Assembly (NCBI GenBank): GCA_016793865.1 | Contig: JAEULJ010000003.1 | Coordinates: 62,001 to 126,000 of the forward strand | Reading direction: 5' to 3' | Length of the DNA: 64,000 nucleotides | Source of the DNA: Altererythrobacter sp. | GTDB taxonomy: Bacteria; Pseudomonadota; Alphaproteobacteria; Sphingomonadales; Sphingomonadaceae | In this document: positions 25,445 to 43,785 of the stretch, piece after piece | Layout of the letters: the number at the start of each line of letters is the position of its first letter | Position numbering within the stretch: position 1 is the first letter of the stretch | Notes under the pieces: generated by a model | What the model saw: the letters and a program-made list of their open reading frames with translations, nothing else | Database searches by the model: none | What the model was told of the DNA's origin: nothing | Program-made: the position numbers and the translations under genes

Positions 25445-26515
25445 TTATTCCGAGTCGTCCTCCGCATCGGGGCCGGTCATCATCTCTTCGGCGACCTTCT
25501 CGGTGCGCTGGCGGATGGCGGCTTCGAGGCGGTCGCACATCTCCGAATTGTCCTTGAGGAACTGCTTGGCGTTCTCGCGGCCCTGGCCGATGCGGACGCT
25601 GTCATAGCTGAACCACGAACCCGACTTCTCGACGATGCCGGCCTTGACGCCGAGGTCGAGGATCTCGCCGATCTTGGAGATGCCCTCGCCATACATGATG
25701 TCGAACTCGACCTGCTTGAACGGGGGGGCGACCTTGTTCTTGACCACCTTCACGCGGGTGGTGTTGCCGATGATATCGTCGCGGTCCTTGATCTGGCCGG
25801 TGCGGCGGATGTCGAGGCGGACCGAGGCGTAGAACTTGAGCGCATTGCCGCCGGTCGTGGTCTCCGGATTGCCGTACATCACGCCGATCTTCATGCGGAG
25901 CTGGTTGATGAAGATGACCATGCACTTGGAACGGTTGATCGAACCGGTGAGCTTGCGCAGCGATTGCGACATCAGGCGCGCCTGGAGCCCGACATGGCTG
26001 TCGCCCATTTCGCCCTCGATCTCGGCCCGCGGCACCAGCGCGGCGACCGAATCCACCACCAGCACGTCGATCGCGTTCGAGCGCACCAGCGTGTCCACGA
26101 TCTCGAGCGCCTGTTCGCCGGTGTCGGGCTGAGAGACGATCAGCTCGTCGATATCGACGCCCAGCTTCTTCGCGTAAACGGGGTCGAGCGCATGCTCGGC
26201 ATCGACGAAGGCGACCGTGCCGCCGTTCTTCTGCGCTTCGGCCAGCACGTGCAGCGCCAGCGTGGTCTTGCCCGAGCTTTCCGGGCCATAGACCTCGATC
26301 ACGCGGCCCTTGGGCAATCCGCCCACGCCCAGCGCGATGTCGAGGCCGAGCGAACCGGTGGAGATCGTCTCGACCTGCATCGCTTCCTTCTGGCCCAGCT
26401 TCATCGCCGAGCCCTTGCCGAACGCGCGGTCGATCTGCGCGAGCGCGGCATCCAGTGCCTTCTGACGGTCCGTGTCCACTTCCCTGCCTTCCACCAGCTT
26501 CAGATTGGCCGCCAT
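25445..26515 (-). CDS. recA: Recombinase RecA
   Basis: 356 residues. It forms filaments on single-stranded DNA, catalyses strand exchange, and as a co-protease triggers LexA self-cleavage in the SOS response. Walker A GPESSGKT is at 77-84, VDAEHALDP and Walker [11 protein letters not shown] follow, and loops L1/L2 with [18 protein letters not shown] and [20 protein letters not shown] are intact. The acidic tail ends DAEDDSE. GAGGAG precedes the ATG. The promoter and LexA box lie 50-95 bases upstream. No recX follows. Confidence 0.99.
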
Positions 26516-26569
26516 GACGTAAGCTCCTCAGATTGGCGAGAGTCCCCCAGCGACTCTTCAACAGGAGCC

Positions 26570-26598
26570 TATGTAGCCCTTTTGTTCTCGTAGAACAA
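26570..26598 (-). promoter_or_regulatory. recA promoter
   Basis: On the minus strand TTGTTC (26598-26593), 17-base spacer, TACATA (26575-26570). The -35 hexamer is part of the LexA box, so LexA binding would block polymerase. The predicted leader is about 48 bases. Confidence 0.7.
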
Positions 26599-26607
26599 GA
26601 GGGGAAC
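26593..26607 (-). promoter_or_regulatory. LexA (SOS) box upstream of recA
   Basis: GAACAAGAGGGGAAC on the plus strand, i.e. GTTC-N7-GTTC reading toward recA. This is the exact direct-repeat LexA motif described for alphaproteobacteria and differs from the palindromic E. coli box. It overlaps the recA -35 element. Confidence 0.9.
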
Positions 26608-26645
26608 GAAAAGTTTTTCCCTCCGAAAGTCCCATTCTCGTGCGT

Positions 26646-28256
26646 TCAGCCCGGAACGCGGCGGAGTTTCCAGGCGAATCGCCGGCGGGAATTGGCAGGG
26701 AGGCGCTGCTCCACGATCCATTGCCCGTCCTTGATCCGCGCTCCCGGCGCGCCGGAAACCTGCCACTCGCGGCTGCTGCCGAGGCGGAAGCGAACCGTCA
26801 CCGCCACGGGATTGGCGTTGCTCGCCTCGGCCGCCTGGGCGCTCCAGCGCTTGCCGCTCTCGTCCACCTCACCCCTCGCGGCGAGCGCGCAGCCGGCGAA
26901 GACCTGCGCGCTTTCGGCCAGCGCCAGCTCGACCTCCTCGCCCTTGGCGAAATCCCGCAGGCGTGTCTCGGCGACGAGCTGATCGCCCTGCGTGGAAGGT
27001 TCGTAGAGCGTAAGCCCGCCATTGGGCAGAGCCGCGCCCAGCCCGCGCCGTTCGCTGTTCTCGGTCGCGAACAGGATGCGCGCGGGTTGCAGTTCCTCGC
27101 CATCGAAGTCGTCGTAGGGCCGGCAATCCTGCACATAGACGAAGCGCCCGCTCACCCCCTGCTTGTCGAGGAAGGCGACCTGCTTCTGGCCCTTGGCGGA
27201 CACGGTCACCGGCTCGGGCACCCGGTAGAGCTTGAGATCGCCCAGATTTTCCTCGCTGGCGATCATGGCCACCGGACTGGCGCTCGCGAGAGCTTCCCGC
27301 GCCATGCGCGCGCCGGTTACGACGATCTCATCGGCCATTGGCGGAGCCGGCGCTGGCGGCGGCGGTGGCGGCGGTGGCGGTGCGAATGGCGTACCCGCCG
27401 CCGTGCTGCCAAACGGATAACAGACCAGCCGCAACGGCTCGGCGGTGGGCGGGTCGGCGAGATCCTCGAAATCGCTCTCGACATTGAGCTTGCCCGCCAC
27501 CGCCATCAGCTCGGCATCGGGGAAGCTCTGGCCATTGTCGTTGAGCACGGTGAGCCAGCTCAGCAGGTCGAGCGTCACCTTGCCGTCGCGGCCCGCTCCG
27601 GCCCTGAGATGACCCACATAGCTCGCTTCCCAGTCGAAGCCCCAGGCGAGATAGGTCAGCACCACGGTGTAGGTGCCGCCCGCCGCGCTCCGCGTGTCGA
27701 GCGTGAACACCGGCTGCGGCGAGAGGCCGGCGGGCACGCGCTCGAAGCTCAGCTTCTCGGGCAGACCGGAGCAGCGCACTGCCTCGAAGCCGGCCTGAGT
27801 CTGGAGCACCAGCCCGCCGTCGGCGCGGGTGCGGACCACCGCGCTCTCGCTGCTGGCGACCCCGGTGGCGGGATTGGTGCGGGTGATGGTGACGCGGTTG
27901 CCCAGGCTCCCGTCCACCAACGCCGCCGGGCTGAGGAGGTCGGCGTTGCGGTTCTTCTCGATCGCGCCGCCCGGGAGGCCGGTGACGATGGCGCTGACCG
28001 CCACCATCCCTTCGGCCACGCCGGTGAAGCGCAGGGTGGAAACGCCCGGCGGCAGCGTGACCGTGCGCGTTTCGGAGATCATCGCGAAGCCTTGCGGCCA
28101 GTCGCGGTTCATCGCGCCGTCCTCGCCCCGGTTCGGATCGCGATAGATGGTGACCGCCAGCTTCTGCGGGGCGGAAACCTCTACACTTGCGCGATCCTGG
28201 GCCGAGAGCGGCACGCCGCCCAGCAGGACCAATCCGAGGAGAAGGCGCCGCAGCAC
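26646..28256 (-). CDS. DUF4139 protein with a polyproline/TonB-box-like insertion
   Basis: 536 residues with a signal peptide (about 1-19). DUF4139 proteins are exported beta-rich proteins of unknown role. This copy aligns with its upstream neighbour (TRTNPATG, LTYLAWGFDWEASYVGHL, KQVAFLDKQGV) but has an insertion at about 292-340: nine prolines, then DEIVVTGARMAREAL. EIVVTG is the TonB-box/plug-start motif of sphingomonad TonB-dependent receptors, yet no beta-barrel follows. It starts with GTG nine bases after the neighbour's stop, so the two are cotranscribed. It may be an envelope accessory protein; function is unknown. Confidence 0.85.
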   Translation of the reverse strand: MLRRLLLGLVLLGGVPLSAQDRASVEVSAPQKLAVTIYRDPNRGEDGAMNRDWPQGFAMISETRTVTLPPGVSTLRFTGVAEGMVAVSAIVTGLPGGAIEKNRNADLLSPAALVDGSLGNRVTITRTNPATGVASSESAVVRTRADGGLVLQTQAGFEAVRCSGLPEKLSFERVPAGLSPQPVFTLDTRSAAGGTYTVVLTYLAWGFDWEASYVGHLRAGAGRDGKVTLDLLSWLTVLNDNGQSFPDAELMAVAGKLNVESDFEDLADPPTAEPLRLVCYPFGSTAAGTPFAPPPPPPPPPAPAPPMADEIVVTGARMAREALASASPVAMIASEENLGDLKLYRVPEPVTVSAKGQKQVAFLDKQGVSGRFVYVQDCRPYDDFDGEELQPARILFATENSERRGLGAALPNGGLTLYEPSTQGDQLVAETRLRDFAKGEEVELALAESAQVFAGCALAARGEVDESGKRWSAQAAEASNANPVAVTVRFRLGSSREWQVSGAPGARIKDGQWIVEQRLPANSRRRFAWKLRRVPG

Positions 28257-28265
28257 GCGCTGGCC

Positions 28266-29786
28266 CTAGTAGCGCGTCTCGAAGACCACGGTGACCGTCC
28301 GCTTGCCATTGGCCGGCACGCTCACCGTCCATTCGCGCCGGTCGGCGTTGACCTGGCGGCCCGGCACATCTTCGCTAACCACGCGGAAATCCTGGCTCCA
28401 CCAGCCCCGGTCGAGCCCGGACTGGGTGAGCTCCACATCCACCGGCGTCGGCTTGGCGTTGGTGAAGCTGTAGCGCATGGTGGTGCGGTAGTAATCGACC
28501 GCGCGCTCGACCTCGACCTCGCGCACGACCTGTCCCGCCTCGATCACGCGGTAGCGGGCGGACCGTTCGTATTCGGCCGCGGTGATCTTCGCCCTGCCCG
28601 CCACCTCGGCCTGCACCAGCACGTCGAAGGCGTCGCCGGTGCGCAGCGTCAGCAGGCTTCCCATCGGTGTGTGGCCGATGCCGCTTTCGCCCACGAATTG
28701 CGGCGTGCCGGCCTTGTCGCGCTGGTAGAAGCGCACCGTTCCGGCGGGCAGCGCATCGCCCAGCCCCTGATCGCGGCTGGAACTGAAGGCGATCTGGCTT
28801 GCGACATTGACCGGAGCCTCGTCGCTGGCCAGCCAGCCCACCTCGCGCGCATAGCGGCGCCTCGCAGGGACGCCCTGGATGTCGAGGAAGCTGACCTGCT
28901 TGGTCTGGGCGTTGGCGATGGTCGTCCGCTCGGCGAGGGGATAGAGGTAGAAATCGCCCAGACGCTCGCGATCGGCCGTCTCGGTGCCCGGCTGCATCAT
29001 GCCGCCCGGCGAGGGCCGTCGCGGCATCACGCGCCCGCCGCCGCGCGCCTGGGCGGGATTGCCCGCCACCAGCAGCGTCTTAGCCTGGCGGAAGGTCGTG
29101 CCGGTGTTGTTGGTCAACGTCACCCAGCCTTGCATGTCGGTCGTGCCCTTGGCCTCGTCGAACAGCGCGACGTAATCGGCGTTCCAGCCCATGCCGGGGG
29201 TGAGGTAGCGGATGGATGCCGGGCGTGCGCCGGCACGGTCGCTCTCCACCGTCACCGACAGCGTGGGGCGCGCCCGCAGATTGGGCGGCACGCGCTCGAA
29301 CACGGTGCGGACGGGGAGTCCGTCGTCACGCAGCACCTCAATGCGGTCGCCGATGCGCAAGACAACGCCGCCCGCCGTCGAAAGCACCGTGGCGCGCTCG
29401 CGCGTCTCCGCGCCGGTGGCGGGATTGGTGCGGATCAGCGTGACGGTCTGGCCGATCGCCTTTTCCATCAGCTTCTCAGGCGTCAGCAGGTCGAAGTCGA
29501 AGTTCTGCTCGACGATGCCGGCGCCCTCGGCCGCGAAGCTCAGCGTCTCGGGCCGGATCTGGGCGGAGACGTCGGGAAACTCGATGCGGCTGCGGCCCCG
29601 TTCGATCGGCAGGGTCCGCACGTCCTGCACCAGCGCCTGGCCGTTGTTGTAGATGGTGACGGACACATCGCCCTGCGCGCTGGCGTCGGGATCGGCGATC
29701 AGCGCCGCCTGCGACTGCTGCGCGGCCAGTGGTGAGGCGCCGGCGAGCCCCAGCATCGCCATGGAAATCAAGCCACGCACGCTCAT
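28266..29786 (-). CDS. DUF4139 domain-containing exported protein
   Basis: 506 residues. Signal peptide about 1-22 (MLGLAGASPLAAQQ). The N-terminal part has the VSVTIYNNGQALVQDVRTL motif typical of the DUF4139/DUF4140 group; the C-terminal half has TPGMGWNADYVALFDE, QVSFLDIQGV and the ending WTVSVPANGKRTVTVVFETRY. It is a paralogue of the gene directly downstream but lacks its polyproline and TonB-box-like segment; here the linker is Met/Pro/Gly-rich (RPSPGGMMQPG). GGGAGGG lies upstream of the ATG. Probably periplasmic or outer-membrane associated; role unknown. Confidence 0.88.
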   Translation of the reverse strand: MSVRGLISMAMLGLAGASPLAAQQSQAALIADPDASAQGDVSVTIYNNGQALVQDVRTLPIERGRSRIEFPDVSAQIRPETLSFAAEGAGIVEQNFDFDLLTPEKLMEKAIGQTVTLIRTNPATGAETRERATVLSTAGGVVLRIGDRIEVLRDDGLPVRTVFERVPPNLRARPTLSVTVESDRAGARPASIRYLTPGMGWNADYVALFDEAKGTTDMQGWVTLTNNTGTTFRQAKTLLVAGNPAQARGGGRVMPRRPSPGGMMQPGTETADRERLGDFYLYPLAERTTIANAQTKQVSFLDIQGVPARRRYAREVGWLASDEAPVNVASQIAFSSSRDQGLGDALPAGTVRFYQRDKAGTPQFVGESGIGHTPMGSLLTLRTGDAFDVLVQAEVAGRAKITAAEYERSARYRVIEAGQVVREVEVERAVDYYRTTMRYSFTNAKPTPVDVELTQSGLDRGWWSQDFRVVSEDVPGRQVNADRREWTVSVPANGKRTVTVVFETRY

Positions 29787-29815
29787 GCGATCCCTCCCCT
29801 GTTATCGCGCCGCCC

Positions 29816-32317
29816 TCAGGCGGCGACGGGCTGCTGACTGAGCACCTCCGCCACCTTGGCACCGATCTGCTGTACCGAGAACGGCTTCGAAATGAAGTGC
29901 ATGTTCTCGATGTCGATCTGGTTACGTAGCTGTTCCTCCGCATAACCGGACATGAACAGGATGGGGATGTCGGGCCTGACCCTGCGTATGCCGCGCGCCA
30001 TTGCCGGGCCGTCCATCGCGGGCATCACCACATCGGACAGGATCAGGTCGAAGCTCGCCCGTGAATTCGCGGCGCCATTGGCCACCAGGCCCAATCCTTC
30101 CTCGCCGTCGCGCGCGGTGGTCACGGTATAGCCGGCGCGGGTGAGCGCGCGCTCGGCCACCGCGCGGACCATGTCCTCGTCCTCCACCAGCAGAATGTTC
30201 GCGCCCCCGCTCCATTCGCTGGCGCGCTGCTGGTCGGCGGGCGCGGCGCTTGGCGGCTCGATTCCGCCGCGATGGACGGGCAGATAGACCGTGAAACGCG
30301 CGCCGGCGGCCGCCCCGGGCGCGCCCGACCCCACGCCGGGCACATTGTCGGCGAAGATGAAGCCGTTCGACTGCTTGACGATGCCATAGACCGTGGAAAG
30401 CCCCAGCCCGGTGCCCTTGCCCTGCTCCTTGGTGGTGAAGAACGGCTCGAAGATCTTGTTTATCACCGCATCCGGGATGCCGCCGCCGGTGTCCTGCACG
30501 ATCAGCGCGGTGTAATCATCGGCCGGCATGATATCGATGCCCATCTTGCGCACATCACGCGCGGAGACGCGGCGGGTTGCTAGGGTCAGCCGGCCAATGG
30601 TGTCCTTGCCGAGCTTGGCGGCATGGCTCTGCATCGCGTCGCGCGCGTTCACGGCCAGGTTGATGATGACCTGTTCGAGCTGCTGGGGATCGGCGCGCAC
30701 CGGGCCCAGCTCGCGATCGTGCCGCACGCTGAACTCGATCCCCGGGCCGAGCAGGCGCTTGAGGAGCTGGCTGACCTCGCTCACCACATCGGGCAGTTGC
30801 AGCACCACCGGGCGCAGCGTCTGCTGGCGGCTGAAGGCGAGGAGCTGGCGAGTCAGGCTGGCGGCGCGGTTGGAATTGGCGCGGATCTGCTGGATGTCGT
30901 CGTAGTCGCTGTCGCCGGGCGAGTGGCGCAGCAGCATCAGATCGCAGTAGCCGATGATCGCGGTCAGCACATTGTTGAAATCATGCGCCACGCCGCCCGC
31001 GAGCTGCCCCACCGCCTGCATCTTGGTTGCCTGGGCCACCTGCCGCCGCAGCCGCTTCTCCTCGCTCGAATCGCTGATCGAGAGCAGCACGGCGGCATCG
31101 CCCAGCCCGCGCACTCCGGCCAGGCCGATCGAGACCGGCTCCTCCTTGTCGCCCGCCAGCCGCACCGCCATGTCGCCGCTGGCGGCCACGCCCCGGGCGA
31201 AACGGCGCACCGAATCGGCGATCGCGGCCTTGTCCTCGCGCACCACCAGATCGCTCGGGAAGGCGGGCAGGCCCTTCCCTTCGCGTTCCACCGCGCGCAG
31301 GAACGCCTTGTTGGCGAACAGGAACCGTCCGTCGCGATCGGTCAACGCCAACCCCAGCGGAAGGGCGGACAGCAGCGTCTCGAGCTGCGGGAAGGCGCTC
31401 TCCCCTTCGCCCGCCCAGGCCGCGCCGATGGCCGCGCTGCTGTCGATCAGCAGCATCAGCGAGGGCGCCTGGTCCGCCTGCGCCGCACCGTCGCCGCGCT
31501 CCTCCAGCGGCACGTGAACCAGTGTCTGCGGGGTGCCCTGCTGGCCCTCGCGGGCGAAGAATATGCGCTCGCGATCATCGGTCCGCAGCAGCGAGACGAA
31601 TTCGACTCCCGCCAGGTTCGCCCGCGCATCGCCGCGGCTGCGCTCCGCCAGGCCGGGGGTGTGGCCCTGAACCAGCCCCTCCGTGCTGACGAGGGCGAAC
31701 TCCAGCCCCGCGCGGCTCATCATCCGGCCGAGCGCGCCGCCCAGCCGCTGGGCCATCCCGTCATAGGCCGCCTCCGCCCGGATCTCGGCGAAGTGCCACA
31801 CCAGGTAATCGTCCGCGCGGCCGGCGCGGGTCACCGCCAGGCTGAAGGCGCGATCCTCGCCCTCGCGCGCCAGGCTCGTCACCTCGCCCGTGCCGTCGCG
31901 CCAGGCGGTGCGCGCGGCGAGCGCCAGCCCTTCCCCGCTCTCCTTCTCGAACCCCAGTTCCGAGGGCGATGCGATCGAGGCGAACCAGCGCTGATAGCTG
32001 GCGTTGGCGCAGACCAGGCGGTTGGCGCGGTCGGTGACCGCGATGGCGCGGTGAGGATTGTCGATCGCCGCCGCGGTCACCGCCCAGTCGGGCAGCGCGG
32101 GTTCGCCGATCTCGGCCCGATGTCCGAGCCGGGTGGAGAACGCCAGTGCCAGGACCAGCACCGCGATCCCGCCGGCATAAGCGACCGCGACCAGTGCGCT
32201 GCCGGCGGCGATCCATACAAGCAGGACCGAGCCGATCACCGCGCCCGCCAGCGCCATGCCGAGCTGCGCCGGGGGTGCGCCCTCGATTGCCGCGATCCGA
32301 TCGGCGAAGCTGCTCAC
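29816..32317 (-). CDS. cckA: Cell-cycle hybrid histidine kinase CckA
   Basis: 833 residues. CckA feeds phosphate through ChpT to CtrA and CpdR and acts as kinase or phosphatase depending on cell-cycle state. Two transmembrane helices (about 21-60) are followed by PAS-like regions (80-270 and 315-415), then the HisKA domain with phospho-His445 in [20 protein letters not shown], the HATPase domain ([33 protein letters not shown]), and a C-terminal receiver with Asp762 in [13 protein letters not shown]. The GTG start at 32317 overlaps the stop of the DUF2062 gene (GTGA). Domain order and motifs are those of CckA; a divergent sphingomonad orthologue is likely. Confidence 0.94.
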
Positions 32318-32997
32318 GCGGTGCAGTCCGAAGGCTTGCCCGGAGGCGGGGCCGCCGGCTCGGCGGGCCGCTCCGCCGATGGCGCGGGCGCCGCTGCGGA
32401 TGCCGCCGCGCCAGCTTGCGCCGCTTCGTGGACATGGCGCCGGACGAGCGCGGCGTGGAGCCGCTGCTGCCGCCGCCGCGCGACGATCGGGCGCCAGATC
32501 AACCCGGCCAGCACATAGCCGAGCGCGGCCGCGACCACCGAAAGCACCGCCAGCCCCAGCAACACCGCGGGCGCCGCGTCGGAAAAGAACCACGCCGTCC
32601 ACACTTGCAGCGACGCGCCGCTCTCGACCATCGCCCACACGGTCGTGGTATCGGCATGGAAGCCCAGGAAATTGCCGATCATGGCCGAGGCGATGAGGAT
32701 CAACGGGGTCGTCGCCGGGTTGGACAGGAAGGTCATCGCGGCCGCTATGGGGATATTGCCGCGCGCCGGAACGCACAGCAGCGCCGCGCCGACGATCTGG
32801 ATACCGGGGATCAGCGCGAAGATGCCCACCAGCAGGCCCACGGCCACGCCGCGCGGCACCGAGCGGCGCGTGAAGCGCCATAGCTCGTGCCGGACAGCCA
32901 GATGGCGCGTCCACCGATTGCCCTCCAGCGCCTCGCGCGTGGGCATGTTCCTGCGGATCGTGTCCGCAAGCCAGCTTTTCGAAGTTTTTCCCGTCAT
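32314..32997 (-). CDS. DUF2062 domain-containing membrane protein
   Basis: 227 residues. DUF2062 proteins are small inner-membrane proteins of unknown function. A basic N-terminus (RRNMPTREALEGNRWTRHLA) precedes three to four hydrophobic stretches; VPRGVAVGLLVGIFALIPGI and AAAMTFLSNPATTPLIL are the family's conserved segments. The last 50 residues are Ala/Pro-rich. The ATG at 32997 is used; the reading frame extends upstream without family-like sequence. It overlaps cckA by GTGA, so the two are translationally coupled. Whether it influences CckA is unknown. Confidence 0.88.
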   Translation of the reverse strand: MTGKTSKSWLADTIRRNMPTREALEGNRWTRHLAVRHELWRFTRRSVPRGVAVGLLVGIFALIPGIQIVGAALLCVPARGNIPIAAAMTFLSNPATTPLILIASAMIGNFLGFHADTTTVWAMVESGASLQVWTAWFFSDAAPAVLLGLAVLSVVAAALGYVLAGLIWRPIVARRRQQRLHAALVRRHVHEAAQAGAAASAAAPAPSAERPAEPAAPPPGKPSDCTA

Positions 32998-33114
32998 CGC
33001 TCTGATCCGAGCAATGGGCGGCGAGAGGCAAAACCACAAGGGGGCGGCGGTCCGGCTTTGCGACAAAGCGCGCGGCGCCATCGGCGAGGGTCACCCGGCG
33101 GGGTCACGCGCCGC

Positions 33115-41016: not shown

Positions 41017-43785
41017 TCAGATTTTCACCCGGACACCGCCGAACAGCGAATAGCCGAATTTCTCGTACTCATACACGCGGTCGATCGTGCCGTAATACCG
41101 CACGCCGGGCGAGTTGGTCAGGTTCTTGGCCTCGAAGAACAGGTTGATGCCGTCCAGCACCTCGAAGTTCGCCGTCGCGTCGAGCTGGCCACGCCCCTTC
41201 CAGTAGAGATCGAGCGCCGGGACATCGGCGTTGATCTCGTTCAGATAGTCGCTCCGCTTGGTATAGGACACGCGCAGGGTAACCGGGCCACGCTCGTAGA
41301 ACAGGGCCGCGTTCCACAGGTGCTTGGACTGGCCCGGTAGCGGGAACACCGAGCGGCCCGCGTAAGCCTGCCCCAGCGAAGCTTCACCCTGGGTGTAGGT
41401 GTAGTTCGCGAACACACCCAGATCGCTGAGCACACCCGGCAGGAACGTGAACTGCTGCTGCCAGTTCAGCTCGATACCGTAGAGCTTGCCGCTGGGCGCG
41501 TTCTCAGGCCGCGTGAGCAGCGCGGGTGCCCCGAGGTAGGTGCCCATGCGCGTGACCGTGTAACGGAAATCGTTGAGGTCCTTGTAGAACACGCTGGCCG
41601 ACAGCATCCCGAGCGGACGGAGATAGTATTCCAGGCCCAGATCGATGTTGTTGGAGACCAGCGGCTGCAGCGCAGGGTTGCCCAGTTCGATCCGCACGGT
41701 CGCGCCGTCGGTGGAATCAAGCACCCGCGGGACGATCGCGGGGAAGTTCGGACGGTTGATGCCCCGCCACAGGGCGAAGCGGCCGATCAGGTTTGGCGTG
41801 AACGCCTGGCGCAAGGTCAGATTGGGGAAGAAATCCGTGTACGCCTGTGTTGCCGGGGCCAGCCCGGTCGGCGTTTCCGCCTTGAAGTTGGTCGTTTCCA
41901 CACGCAGGCCCGCGATCACCGTGGTGCCGCCGAATTCGCCGCGTGCCTGGCCGAACATGCCCAGGATCTTCTCGCTGGCGGTGTAGTCGGCCGAGACCGA
42001 TTGCGGCATCCGGCGGGGCGCATTCGGCTTGCTCAGATCGTAATGAGCATCGGCCTTGTCGCCATCGACGGTTTTGCCAAGCAGATAGTCGAAGTTGCGC
42101 GAGTCATTGCCCGACAGGAAATAGGAAAGCGGCTGCGTCGGCGCAGAGCTGGCGCGACGGTCCCGCAGGCGCTCCTCGTCGGCGAAGATGTTCCGTTCGC
42201 GATATTTCCCGCCCAGGCTGATCGTGATGTCGCGCCCACCCACCGGCAAAGGCGCATCGAAGCGCGCGCTGAAGCTCTTCTCGTCGTTCAGCGTGGTGTT
42301 CCAGCGGAAGGCATTCTCATAGAAGTTGAAGGCGCTGGCGTTCAGATGCTCGTTGGTGGTGAACAGCGAATATGTGGGCAGCTTGCCACTCCCCGGAAAG
42401 GCATAGCTGACTGTCGGACGCGTCGAGAGACGATACAGCAGCTCGTCCCGACGGGGATAGGTCTGGTCGGACTTGCTGTATGCGGCATCCACGTACAGCT
42501 TTCCGCCGCCGATCTGGTATTCGCCGCCGCCGGTGATCGACCAGACGACGTTGCGCTGGATGCGATGGCGGACCTGCTTGGTGATGCGGGTGTTGGTGAA
42601 GGTCGCGGTCGAATCGGTCGCACCGGGCTGCAGCGTGCCGTCGCTCCAGATGATGCCGAGCTGATCGCGATATTCATCGTCCTCGAACTGGGCATAGGAA
42701 CCCCGGACCCACATCCGCGCGCCATCGGTGGGGCGCCATTCGAGCGCCGCGGTGCCGGCGATCCGTTCGCGCTTGGTGCGGTAGTCCTTGAACAGCGTCT
42801 CGGTCAGACCATAGACCTTCGCGTTGTCCGGACCGATCAGGCCCCATACGTTCTCCACGTTCTCGGGGCGGCGGTTGGTTTGCGAGTAGCTGCCCGAAAC
42901 CAGCACGCCGATAGTGCGGTTGGCCGTGACAGTGCTCACCGTGCCGGACGCGCGATAATCGTTGGTATTGCCGAACTGGTTGTAGCCGGCTCCGGCCATG
43001 CCCGACATCGCAAAGCTGCGGCGATCGAAGGCCGAGCGCGTGCGGACATTGATCGCGCCGGACACGGAATCGGCATCCTGATAGGGAAGCAGCGACTTGG
43101 AGACCTCGATGTTGGACACGATATCGGACGGCAGCGTGTCCAGGTTCACGGCGCGGGTCAGCGGGTCCATCGAAGGGATCGAAACGCCATCGACGGTCAC
43201 GGCGCTGAACTCCGACGGAGCGCCGCGGACGTTGACATAGCGGCCCTCGCCCTGATCGCGCTCGATGGCGATGCCTGGCGCACGTTGTAGCGCCTCGGCG
43301 ATGTTGGGATCGGGGAACCGCCCGATGGCGTCGGACGAGAGGACAGTGGCGGTGTTGTCGGCCTGGCGCTGCTGGTTGAGCGCGCGCGCGACGGTGTCGG
43401 TCAGGGTGCCGGTAACGAGGATCGCGTTGTCGTGGCCCATCGACATTTCGACCGGCGTGCGGTGCTCCGCCACCTCGATGGTGCGCGATTCGTTCGGACG
43501 ACCCAGATAGTCGAACTGCAAGGTCGCCGCGCGATTGGCGGGCACTGCGATGGTGAACGAGCCGTCGAACGACGTGGTAGCCTCCACGCCGGTTTCCGCG
43601 ACGGTCACGCGCGCGCCGGGAAGCGCCGAGCCATCGGCGTCGTAGACATGGCCGGAAAGGAAGGTTTCGGCGCTGCTGTGCTGCTGGGCGGCGGCGCTCT
43701 GCACCATGGGGGCGAGCAGGCCGGCGGCAAGTGCGATGGACGAGGTGCGCGCGGCCGCACGCACCCACGTAAGCGATGAGATCAT
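41017..43785 (-). CDS. TonB-dependent receptor (Xanthomonas/Caulobacter type)
   Basis: 922 residues. Outer-membrane beta-barrel importing large substrates with energy from TonB-ExbBD. Signal peptide about 1-34 (ALAAGLLAPMVQSAAAQ); then a carboxypeptidase-like regulatory beta-sandwich (LSGHVYDADGSALPGARVTV, about 43-115), the TonB-box-like ILVTGT, the plug (ALQRAPGIAIERDQGEGRYVNVRG, SIPSMDPLTRAVNLDTLPSD) and a long barrel ending YEKFGYSLFGGVRVKI with the terminal aromatic pattern. GGGGAA precedes the ATG at 43785; the longer frame is not signal-like. No degradative cluster is adjacent, so the substrate is unknown. Confidence 0.95.
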   Translation of the reverse strand: MISSLTWVRAAARTSSIALAAGLLAPMVQSAAAQQHSSAETFLSGHVYDADGSALPGARVTVAETGVEATTSFDGSFTIAVPANRAATLQFDYLGRPNESRTIEVAEHRTPVEMSMGHDNAILVTGTLTDTVARALNQQRQADNTATVLSSDAIGRFPDPNIAEALQRAPGIAIERDQGEGRYVNVRGAPSEFSAVTVDGVSIPSMDPLTRAVNLDTLPSDIVSNIEVSKSLLPYQDADSVSGAINVRTRSAFDRRSFAMSGMAGAGYNQFGNTNDYRASGTVSTVTANRTIGVLVSGSYSQTNRRPENVENVWGLIGPDNAKVYGLTETLFKDYRTKRERIAGTAALEWRPTDGARMWVRGSYAQFEDDEYRDQLGIIWSDGTLQPGATDSTATFTNTRITKQVRHRIQRNVVWSITGGGEYQIGGGKLYVDAAYSKSDQTYPRRDELLYRLSTRPTVSYAFPGSGKLPTYSLFTTNEHLNASAFNFYENAFRWNTTLNDEKSFSARFDAPLPVGGRDITISLGGKYRERNIFADEERLRDRRASSAPTQPLSYFLSGNDSRNFDYLLGKTVDGDKADAHYDLSKPNAPRRMPQSVSADYTASEKILGMFGQARGEFGGTTVIAGLRVETTNFKAETPTGLAPATQAYTDFFPNLTLRQAFTPNLIGRFALWRGINRPNFPAIVPRVLDSTDGATVRIELGNPALQPLVSNNIDLGLEYYLRPLGMLSASVFYKDLNDFRYTVTRMGTYLGAPALLTRPENAPSGKLYGIELNWQQQFTFLPGVLSDLGVFANYTYTQGEASLGQAYAGRSVFPLPGQSKHLWNAALFYERGPVTLRVSYTKRSDYLNEINADVPALDLYWKGRGQLDATANFEVLDGINLFFEAKNLTNSPGVRYYGTIDRVYEYEKFGYSLFGGVRVKI

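Follow-up and report, generated by a model that had tools for sequence, protein, structure and literature searches.

In descriptions of the Ton system its clients are receptors, and bacteriocins count as intruders that carry a TonB box of their own. In the receptor DdvT of Sphingobium SYK-6, whose box reads IIVT, a V42A or T43A change is reported to reduce growth on its substrate, and the V42A + T43A double change brought growth, conversion, and uptake down to the level of the deletion (PMC6874591). The TonB-dependent transporter Oar is reported to use its box for protease export (PMC6434023), thus the Ton system is already documented in a task other than import. Among the matches listed from a review, the non-receptor carriers of a TonB box are bacteriocins (PMC11658791). 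VWA proteins are considered as possible force transducers in a paper of 2025, and neither "TonB box" nor "DUF4139" occurs in its main text (PMC12204202). Among the matches listed in our literature searches there was no report of a TonB box in DUF4139 relatives or in VWA/YfbK proteins; the DUF4139 work found there concerns, by title, Leishmania and Anisakis.

The box-bearing protein and its gene neighborhood

The locus compared here with these systems lies in a stretch of 64,000 nucleotides of Altererythrobacter sp. DNA, called the window below. Table 1 lists the features. In the linker of the box-bearing protein nine prolines are followed by EIVVTGARMAREALASASPVAMIASEE, and after EIVVTG (residues 310–315, 27312–27329) the protein continues ARMAREALASASPVAMIASEENLGDLKLY; the P of ASPVAMI stands 17 residues after the I of IVVTG. 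When the protein was read again, the coordinates given for the polyproline and the motif in the first-pass annotation proved correct. By eye the N-terminus is a Sec-type signal peptide without a lipobox cysteine, and no membrane anchor is visible in the protein.

Table 1. Features of the box-bearing locus and its neighbors in the window
Feature	Position	Strand	Remarks
recA (presumably, from the protein sequence)	25445..26515	-	downstream neighbor kept in relatives
Box-bearing protein, 536 aa, distant DUF4139 relative	26646..28256	-	GTG start
Cys456	26889..26891	-	coupled with Cys378
Cys378	27123..27125	-	coupled with Cys456, behind the linker
Linker, invariant C279 to L341 (of LGDLKLY)	27234..27422	-	
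ASPVAMI, from residue 326	27261..27281	-	like the first plug strand of TonB-dependent receptors
TonB-box-like motif E-IVVTGAR, residues 310–317	27306..27329	-	sequence and conservation
Polyproline, 9 Pro, residues 293–301	27354..27380	-	spacer
Cys279	27420..27422	-	linker base, invariant, 172/172
Cys162	27771..27773	-	invariant in box type, 172/172
Tandem paralogue	28266..29786	-	without box and box-type cysteines; weak DUF4140/DUF4139 matches
Hybrid histidine kinase, CckA-like	29816..33094	-	upstream neighbor kept in relatives; ORF start uncertain

The protein had been labeled a DUF4139 protein at first pass. It has zero matches of its own to Pfam up to an E value of 10, whereas DUF4139 is matched at E 0.1 or better by 11 out of 37 box-type relatives in our family alignment (A1), the strongest at 1.4e-6. 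The label thus holds by way of the relatives and not for the window protein itself, and we consider "DUF4139 relative" a fair name, short of formal membership at the curated cut-off of PF13598, because the protein's own match is absent though those relatives match. Sequence search of the PDB with A1 returned two matches at chance level (E 0.2 and 0.3). The Plug domain (PF07715) was matched neither by the whole window protein (up to E 10) nor by its 32-aa piece. There is also no Pfam barrel match in the protein, and about 220 residues follow the box as compared with the roughly 600 or more taken as a criterion for a 22-strand barrel, in agreement with the first reading of a protein that has no barrel. 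Elsewhere in the window, at 43096–43371, a Plug match falls in a receptor gene, a 985-aa open frame on the minus strand.

The tandem paralogue ends nine bases upstream of the box-bearing gene, and the two products share 28% identity over 462 aligned positions (E 5e-40); both sides of the motif align, and the motif stretch is gapped. The Pfam scores of the paralogue stay below the cut-offs (DUF4140, 21.7 bits; DUF4139, 20.3 bits with a cut-off of 31.8). The four genes (25445–33094 in the window) tend to stay together: among 80 named loci, 67 show all of them in the order cckA-like, paralogue, box gene, recA, and 13 have three of them and are taken to be truncated by contig or locus ends.

Recurrence of the box and drift of the linker

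Of 199 genomes searched in the same family, 112 have a match, nine of these only at E above 1e-6. Ten genomes from other families of the same order (f174, f175, f178, and f179) gave weaker matches (E 1e-36 to 1e-53) and stand outside the loci read here. For the linker sample we used 90 loci (30 + 60, a subset of the matching genomes with one genome present twice) and the loci from class, order, and named-genome searches. The linker was defined as the 70 residues before LGDLKLY, which yielded 163 distinct stretches. A loose box, [IVLM]x[VILM][TS][GA], is present in 161 of these (shuffles: mean 12.0, maximum 22 in 200 rounds), and in 156 of the 163 it is joined by R or K within the next four residues (shuffles 3.3, maximum 9). 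The strict box, [IVM][IVM]VT[GA], is found in 131 out of 163 linkers and in a mean of 0.175 after shuffling (maximum 2, 200 rounds); the shuffles overstate significance because the linkers, though distinct, are related. An earlier, narrower expression had found 130/159, missing ITVTG and IEVTA variants as well as wrongly cut linkers; the pattern was therefore widened and the shuffles were run under the same pattern. Outside the count stand four unanchored box-type sequences, namely both fragments of an interrupted gene in L064 (a single one of them has the box), L052 (with the box), and an incomplete second copy in L078, in which no box was seen.

The two linkers without a box come from L312, in another family of the same order, and from one copy in L314. 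The genome of the latter (G682) has three box-type copies, two of which were read: one has a long polyproline linker without a box, the other a box and a plug-like tail. Ten further loci (L351–L360), several from genomes already counted, have the box in nine cases, and L359 keeps only RVAAQKK at this place. Among the paralogue linkers the strict box occurs in 0/109 and the loose one in 1/109 (an earlier count gave 0/31 rows, with the window copy held twice; 30 unanchored paralogue-type sequences are outside the count). The strict count in the paralogue rules out a box that is common in any sphingomonad linker. Two points raised in the first-pass annotation hold here: the motif recurs at this linker in other sphingomonads when the suggested check is run, and it is missing from the paralogue, whose flanking sequence aligns around a gap. 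Sequences were assigned to box or paralogue type with two profiles, and the linker is part of one of them; since the box-less L312 and L359 still fell in the box type, the assignment is not decided by the box alone.

Within the 161 aligned boxes I is found in 149, V at the third place in 156, T in 155, and G or A in 113 or 48, respectively. The seventh place is hardly demanded by the pattern, and it is occupied by R in 138 and by K in 8 of the 161. Mean pairwise identity is 0.86–0.94 at I, V, and T as compared with 0.12–0.21 in the columns that border the box most closely, and proline-rich positions reach 0.38 at most. In this comparison the pattern itself selects for the first five box positions, but for the R column (0.74) in a few rows only. 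Measured from C279 to L341, the linker is 64 residues long at the median and 79 at most (the minimum of 19 is from the incomplete second copy in L078), and the box starts 10 to 46 residues before the linker end. The box is probably the working part, since it is kept while its surroundings drift.

The prolines behave differently from what had been proposed at first, namely a docking role for the polyproline. We counted 172 distinct open frames, in which some genes are present twice (same gene, different flanks). PPP is absent or behind the box in 30 of them: 22 have no PPP run and in 8 the box stands ahead of the prolines; three frames have no box. The polyproline is ruled out as a docking part by these counts, and because of them we regard it as a dispensable spacer. 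The accompanying statement that TonB binds Pro-rich regions also had to be corrected: we know of no such binding, and TonB itself contains a Pro-rich region.

In addition to the two invariant cysteines, the 172 frames have C378 and C456 together in 128 cases, neither in 43, and one alone in a single case. The paralogue type has neither C162 nor C279, and in 155 out of 169 paralogue frames there is no cysteine after open-frame residue 60. Two disulfides, predicted as C162–C279 and C378–C456, likely brace the fold around the loop. In force spectroscopy of BtuB, the bond between box and TonB is reported to outlast the unfolding by force of some 50 plug residues, a stretch located by means of engineered plug disulfides (PMC5413942). 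By analogy, disulfide bracing would make sense around a loop that may be pulled by TonB.

In a tree of 82 rows (quick method, midpoint root, linker columns included) the 24 rows of the box type group into a single clade (SH-aLRT 100), next to the clade of the paralogues of the same genomes (96). L367 and L369, labeled M by score, are long-branch homologues outside the box clade. A single duplication probably gave rise to the box type and the paralogue, because the two clades of the same genomes stand side by side. Inside the box clade the box-less L312 branches first; f1 and two families from other orders of the same class, f5 and f63, follow as an unresolved group. By the patterns used, the VVT[G/A] segment is absent from 33 homologous loci of other orders or classes (23 in L150–L172, 10 in L361–L370), most of which have a single gene. 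Given its absence from both the paralogue and these homologues, the box would have been gained on the box-type line, either after the L312 split or before it with subsequent loss in L312.

Likeness to receptors and a second protein family

The own genome has 20 DNA sites for IVVT[G/A]. Fourteen mark the N-terminus of a receptor, 12 of them next to a Plug match and two (L093 and L097) as judged by eye. L108 falls at a later point of a receptor frame, short frames contain L095, L098, and L099, and one site is the box-bearing protein. At L096 (G000:C6:91565) IVVTARLRK sits in an apparent beta strand of an aspartic-protease-like ORF, probably by chance. The same genome gave 31 Plug (PF07715) matches and three TonB_C matches, two of them over the cut-off (near G000:C4:74483–74719 and C2:605171–605365). 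The strict box is present in 21 of 30 own-genome receptor loci examined, 16 of these with R at the seventh place. TonB-dependent receptors thus share the motif I-[V/I]-V-T-[G/A]-x-R with the linkers, a pattern to which IVVTGAR of the window conforms. The position differs: here the box is found mid-protein in a linker, whereas in receptors it is N-terminal.

Next to the motif itself we compared the linkers with receptors by a profile (A3) of 44 positions made from the DNA references of 21 linkers; since we chose rows with the strict box and mostly long tails, the result speaks for that subset. The targets were 30 genomes chosen for lack of the full-length gene. A3 found matches in 30/30 genomes at E up to 0.05, the best match being 1e-5 or better in 27 of them; the best E was 8e-11 and the three weakest best matches were 7.9e-4, 1.0e-3, and 0.026. 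Several matches use only the part past most of the prolines (for example model positions 14–43, 1.3e-9, in G006). By eye the best locus per genome is a receptor N-terminus in 29 of 30 and a VWA lipoprotein in one (L317). The receptor text IVVTGSRIARRDLETAAPVAVVNSEEF (L318), for example, is comparable to the linker text IIVTGSRMQRKAVETAAPIAVVAAEEQ (L031). A PVxVV-like element after the box occurs in 50 out of 115 linkers that have the strict box followed by xR (shuffles 9.0, maximum 19), and at 15–18 residues after the box in 42 of the 115 (shuffles 2.07, maximum 7, 500 rounds). Among receptor N-termini it is found in 23 of 30, all at 17–18 residues, these 30 being the ones that passed a box + LRG/NLR text filter among 59 receptor loci; part of the box-type members thus have the element near receptor spacing. 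Because the profile finds receptors and the plug-strand-like element stands near receptor spacing, the segment resembles the TonB box of a receptor, often together with the start of the plug, in a non-receptor. The receptor-like motif noticed at first pass is confirmed to this extent, as a sequence likeness to TonB box and plug start.

In one box-type locus (L357:2308–2451) the linker holds a rearranged plug-like piece, EISVTVLPAPELEARGINTVAEALQRVSA, before the box. When 48 residues are scanned alone, they give a Pfam Plug match (E 0.014) that stays below the curated cut-off; the whole protein has no Plug match up to E 10. The fragment is perhaps a second, independent uptake of receptor sequence.

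VWA lipoproteins of the YfbK type (PF12450, PF12034) also have polyproline and IVVTGSR-like boxes, in an N-terminal stretch that mostly lies behind a lipobox. Unlike the box-bearing protein they have an unrelated fold and are mostly lipid-anchored, and about half of them have the box. They (PF12450) were found in 28 out of 99 genomes of the same family, the own genome not among them. Box and polyproline occur together in 13/30 loci by one pattern and in 16/29 parsed proteins by a looser one; the patterns vary between counts and a few frames parsed badly (L269, L275, L278, and L280). Loci with such arms are among L253–L282, L317, L346, L347, L387, L393, and L395. Longer receptor-plug-like pieces are seen in L274, L395, and L256, and two boxes each in L266 and L346. 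In L274 the lipobox is followed by EAIVVTGTRLPQRNVETATPIAVVQSEEFKLSGTVNVSNVVNNLPQVV, which reads by eye as the N-terminus of a receptor as far as the first helix of the plug; 51 residues of it alone match Pfam Plug at E 0.029, under the curated cut-off, and the whole protein is without a Plug match. A phylum-wide search matched VWA proteins in 63 of 299 genomes, of which the best 30 loci were read: the box is absent from all 22 from other classes, and a box-like piece is present in three of the eight from the same class, all of family f63 (L387 by pattern; L393 and L395 by eye), which is also a family with the box in the DUF4139 relative. The sole f1 locus (L399) has no box. A weak A1 match in G260 (C18:64864–65088, model positions 265–330) overlaps a VWA gene frame.

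The likeness to receptors runs beyond the box to the first-plug-strand-like element near receptor spacing, and longer plug-like pieces, below the curated cut-off, are found in L357 and the VWA protein L274. Both observations would suit a mimic of the plug, in which box and first plug strand bind receptor barrels or an assembly factor and aid receptor folding, closing, or checking, and TonB is not the partner. However, conservation across all members is limited to the box and, in most, its R, and 65 out of 115 strict-box linkers lack the PVxVV-like element; we regard such a mimic as unlikely. A neutral or mutational origin, in which GC-rich linkers of proline codons gain pieces of receptor genes by recombination and have no function from them, would account for polyproline with box or plug-like pieces in two unrelated families of the same lineages, and for the rearranged order in L357 with the plug part before the box. 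Preservation of the box in 161/163 linkers amid scrambled flanks, together with the strict 0/109 in the adjacent paralogue, speaks for selection instead, and we rate the neutral origin as very improbable.

A candidate role in TonB docking

We favor, with moderate confidence, the explanation that the segment is a receptor-derived TonB box in a soluble DUF4139 relative and is bound by TonB. After tandem duplication of a DUF4139 relative, an N-terminal piece of a receptor (the TonB box IVVTGxR, often with the first plug strand) would have been acquired in the loop between the two conserved halves. The product would be a soluble periplasmic protein, probably disulfide-braced, and the TonB C-terminal domain would bind its box by strand addition, as in receptors. 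Binding of TonB by the loop is the part that, from the sequence comparisons, we consider likely. What follows from binding we infer to be either competition for TonB or force on the protein. We lean towards the former, because no membrane anchor is seen: the protein may occupy or park TonB and so tune the TonB supply to many receptors. About equally possible, force may pass through the loop onto the protein and its tandem partner. A TonB box pentapeptide, according to Tuckman and Osburne in 1992, reportedly inhibits TonB-dependent processes in vivo, which by analogy agrees with a soluble box protein acting as competitor. The overall reading at first pass is retained as to the receptor-like motif, the variable linker, the absence from the paralogue, and the recurrence, and dropped as to docking by the polyproline.

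Some observations count against docking. There are box-less members in genomes with TonB and many receptors, the gene is lacking in nearly half of the family genomes (the 112/199 above), and for docking as work there is no visible anchor to turn the pull of TonB into work. TonB is present in 9/9 genomes tested, both box-less ones included, and the latter (G581 with L312, and G981 with L359) also have 62 and 30 Plug matches; loss of the box tracking loss of TonB was not seen in these two. The box is thus not strictly required where TonB exists.

The conserved R has a bearing on the partner as well. It is not known as part of the classical TonB box, and it is conserved after the box in linkers and receptors, so a further reader could exist: IVVTGxR may be recognized by another periplasmic factor (a protease, or a Tol or BAM component) as a shared sorting or quality-control tag and not for TonB docking. 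Against this, mutants of a sphingomonad receptor are reported to show that V and T of such a box serve its TonB-dependent uptake (PMC6874591), and we find a reader other than TonB quite unlikely.

If TonB does bind the box, the consequences would reach beyond one locus. In genomes with dozens of receptors and few TonB proteins, the question arises of how TonB is divided among them. From a conserved box in a resident soluble protein one would predict either a TonB ligand that could set how much free TonB is available or a new task for the motor, and the box gives a simple peptide handle on TonB sharing. Its occurrence also suggests that the receptor docking module is movable between unrelated proteins. 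We give an even chance to the wider proposal that sphingomonads and at least one other alphaproteobacterial family have resident, non-transporter Ton clients, that is, unrelated envelope proteins (the DUF4139 relative and VWA lipoproteins) that took over the receptor module of box and plug start on arms rich in proline. The TonB motor would then also act on non-receptor proteins of the periplasm, or be governed by them.

Among known systems the group B colicins and KlebC are described as likewise having a TonB box in an unstructured stretch of a non-receptor (PMC11658791). Those proteins are bacteriocins that enter cells by means of the box (PMC11658791), whereas here the gene is widespread in a bacterial family and stands between a CckA-like kinase gene and recA.
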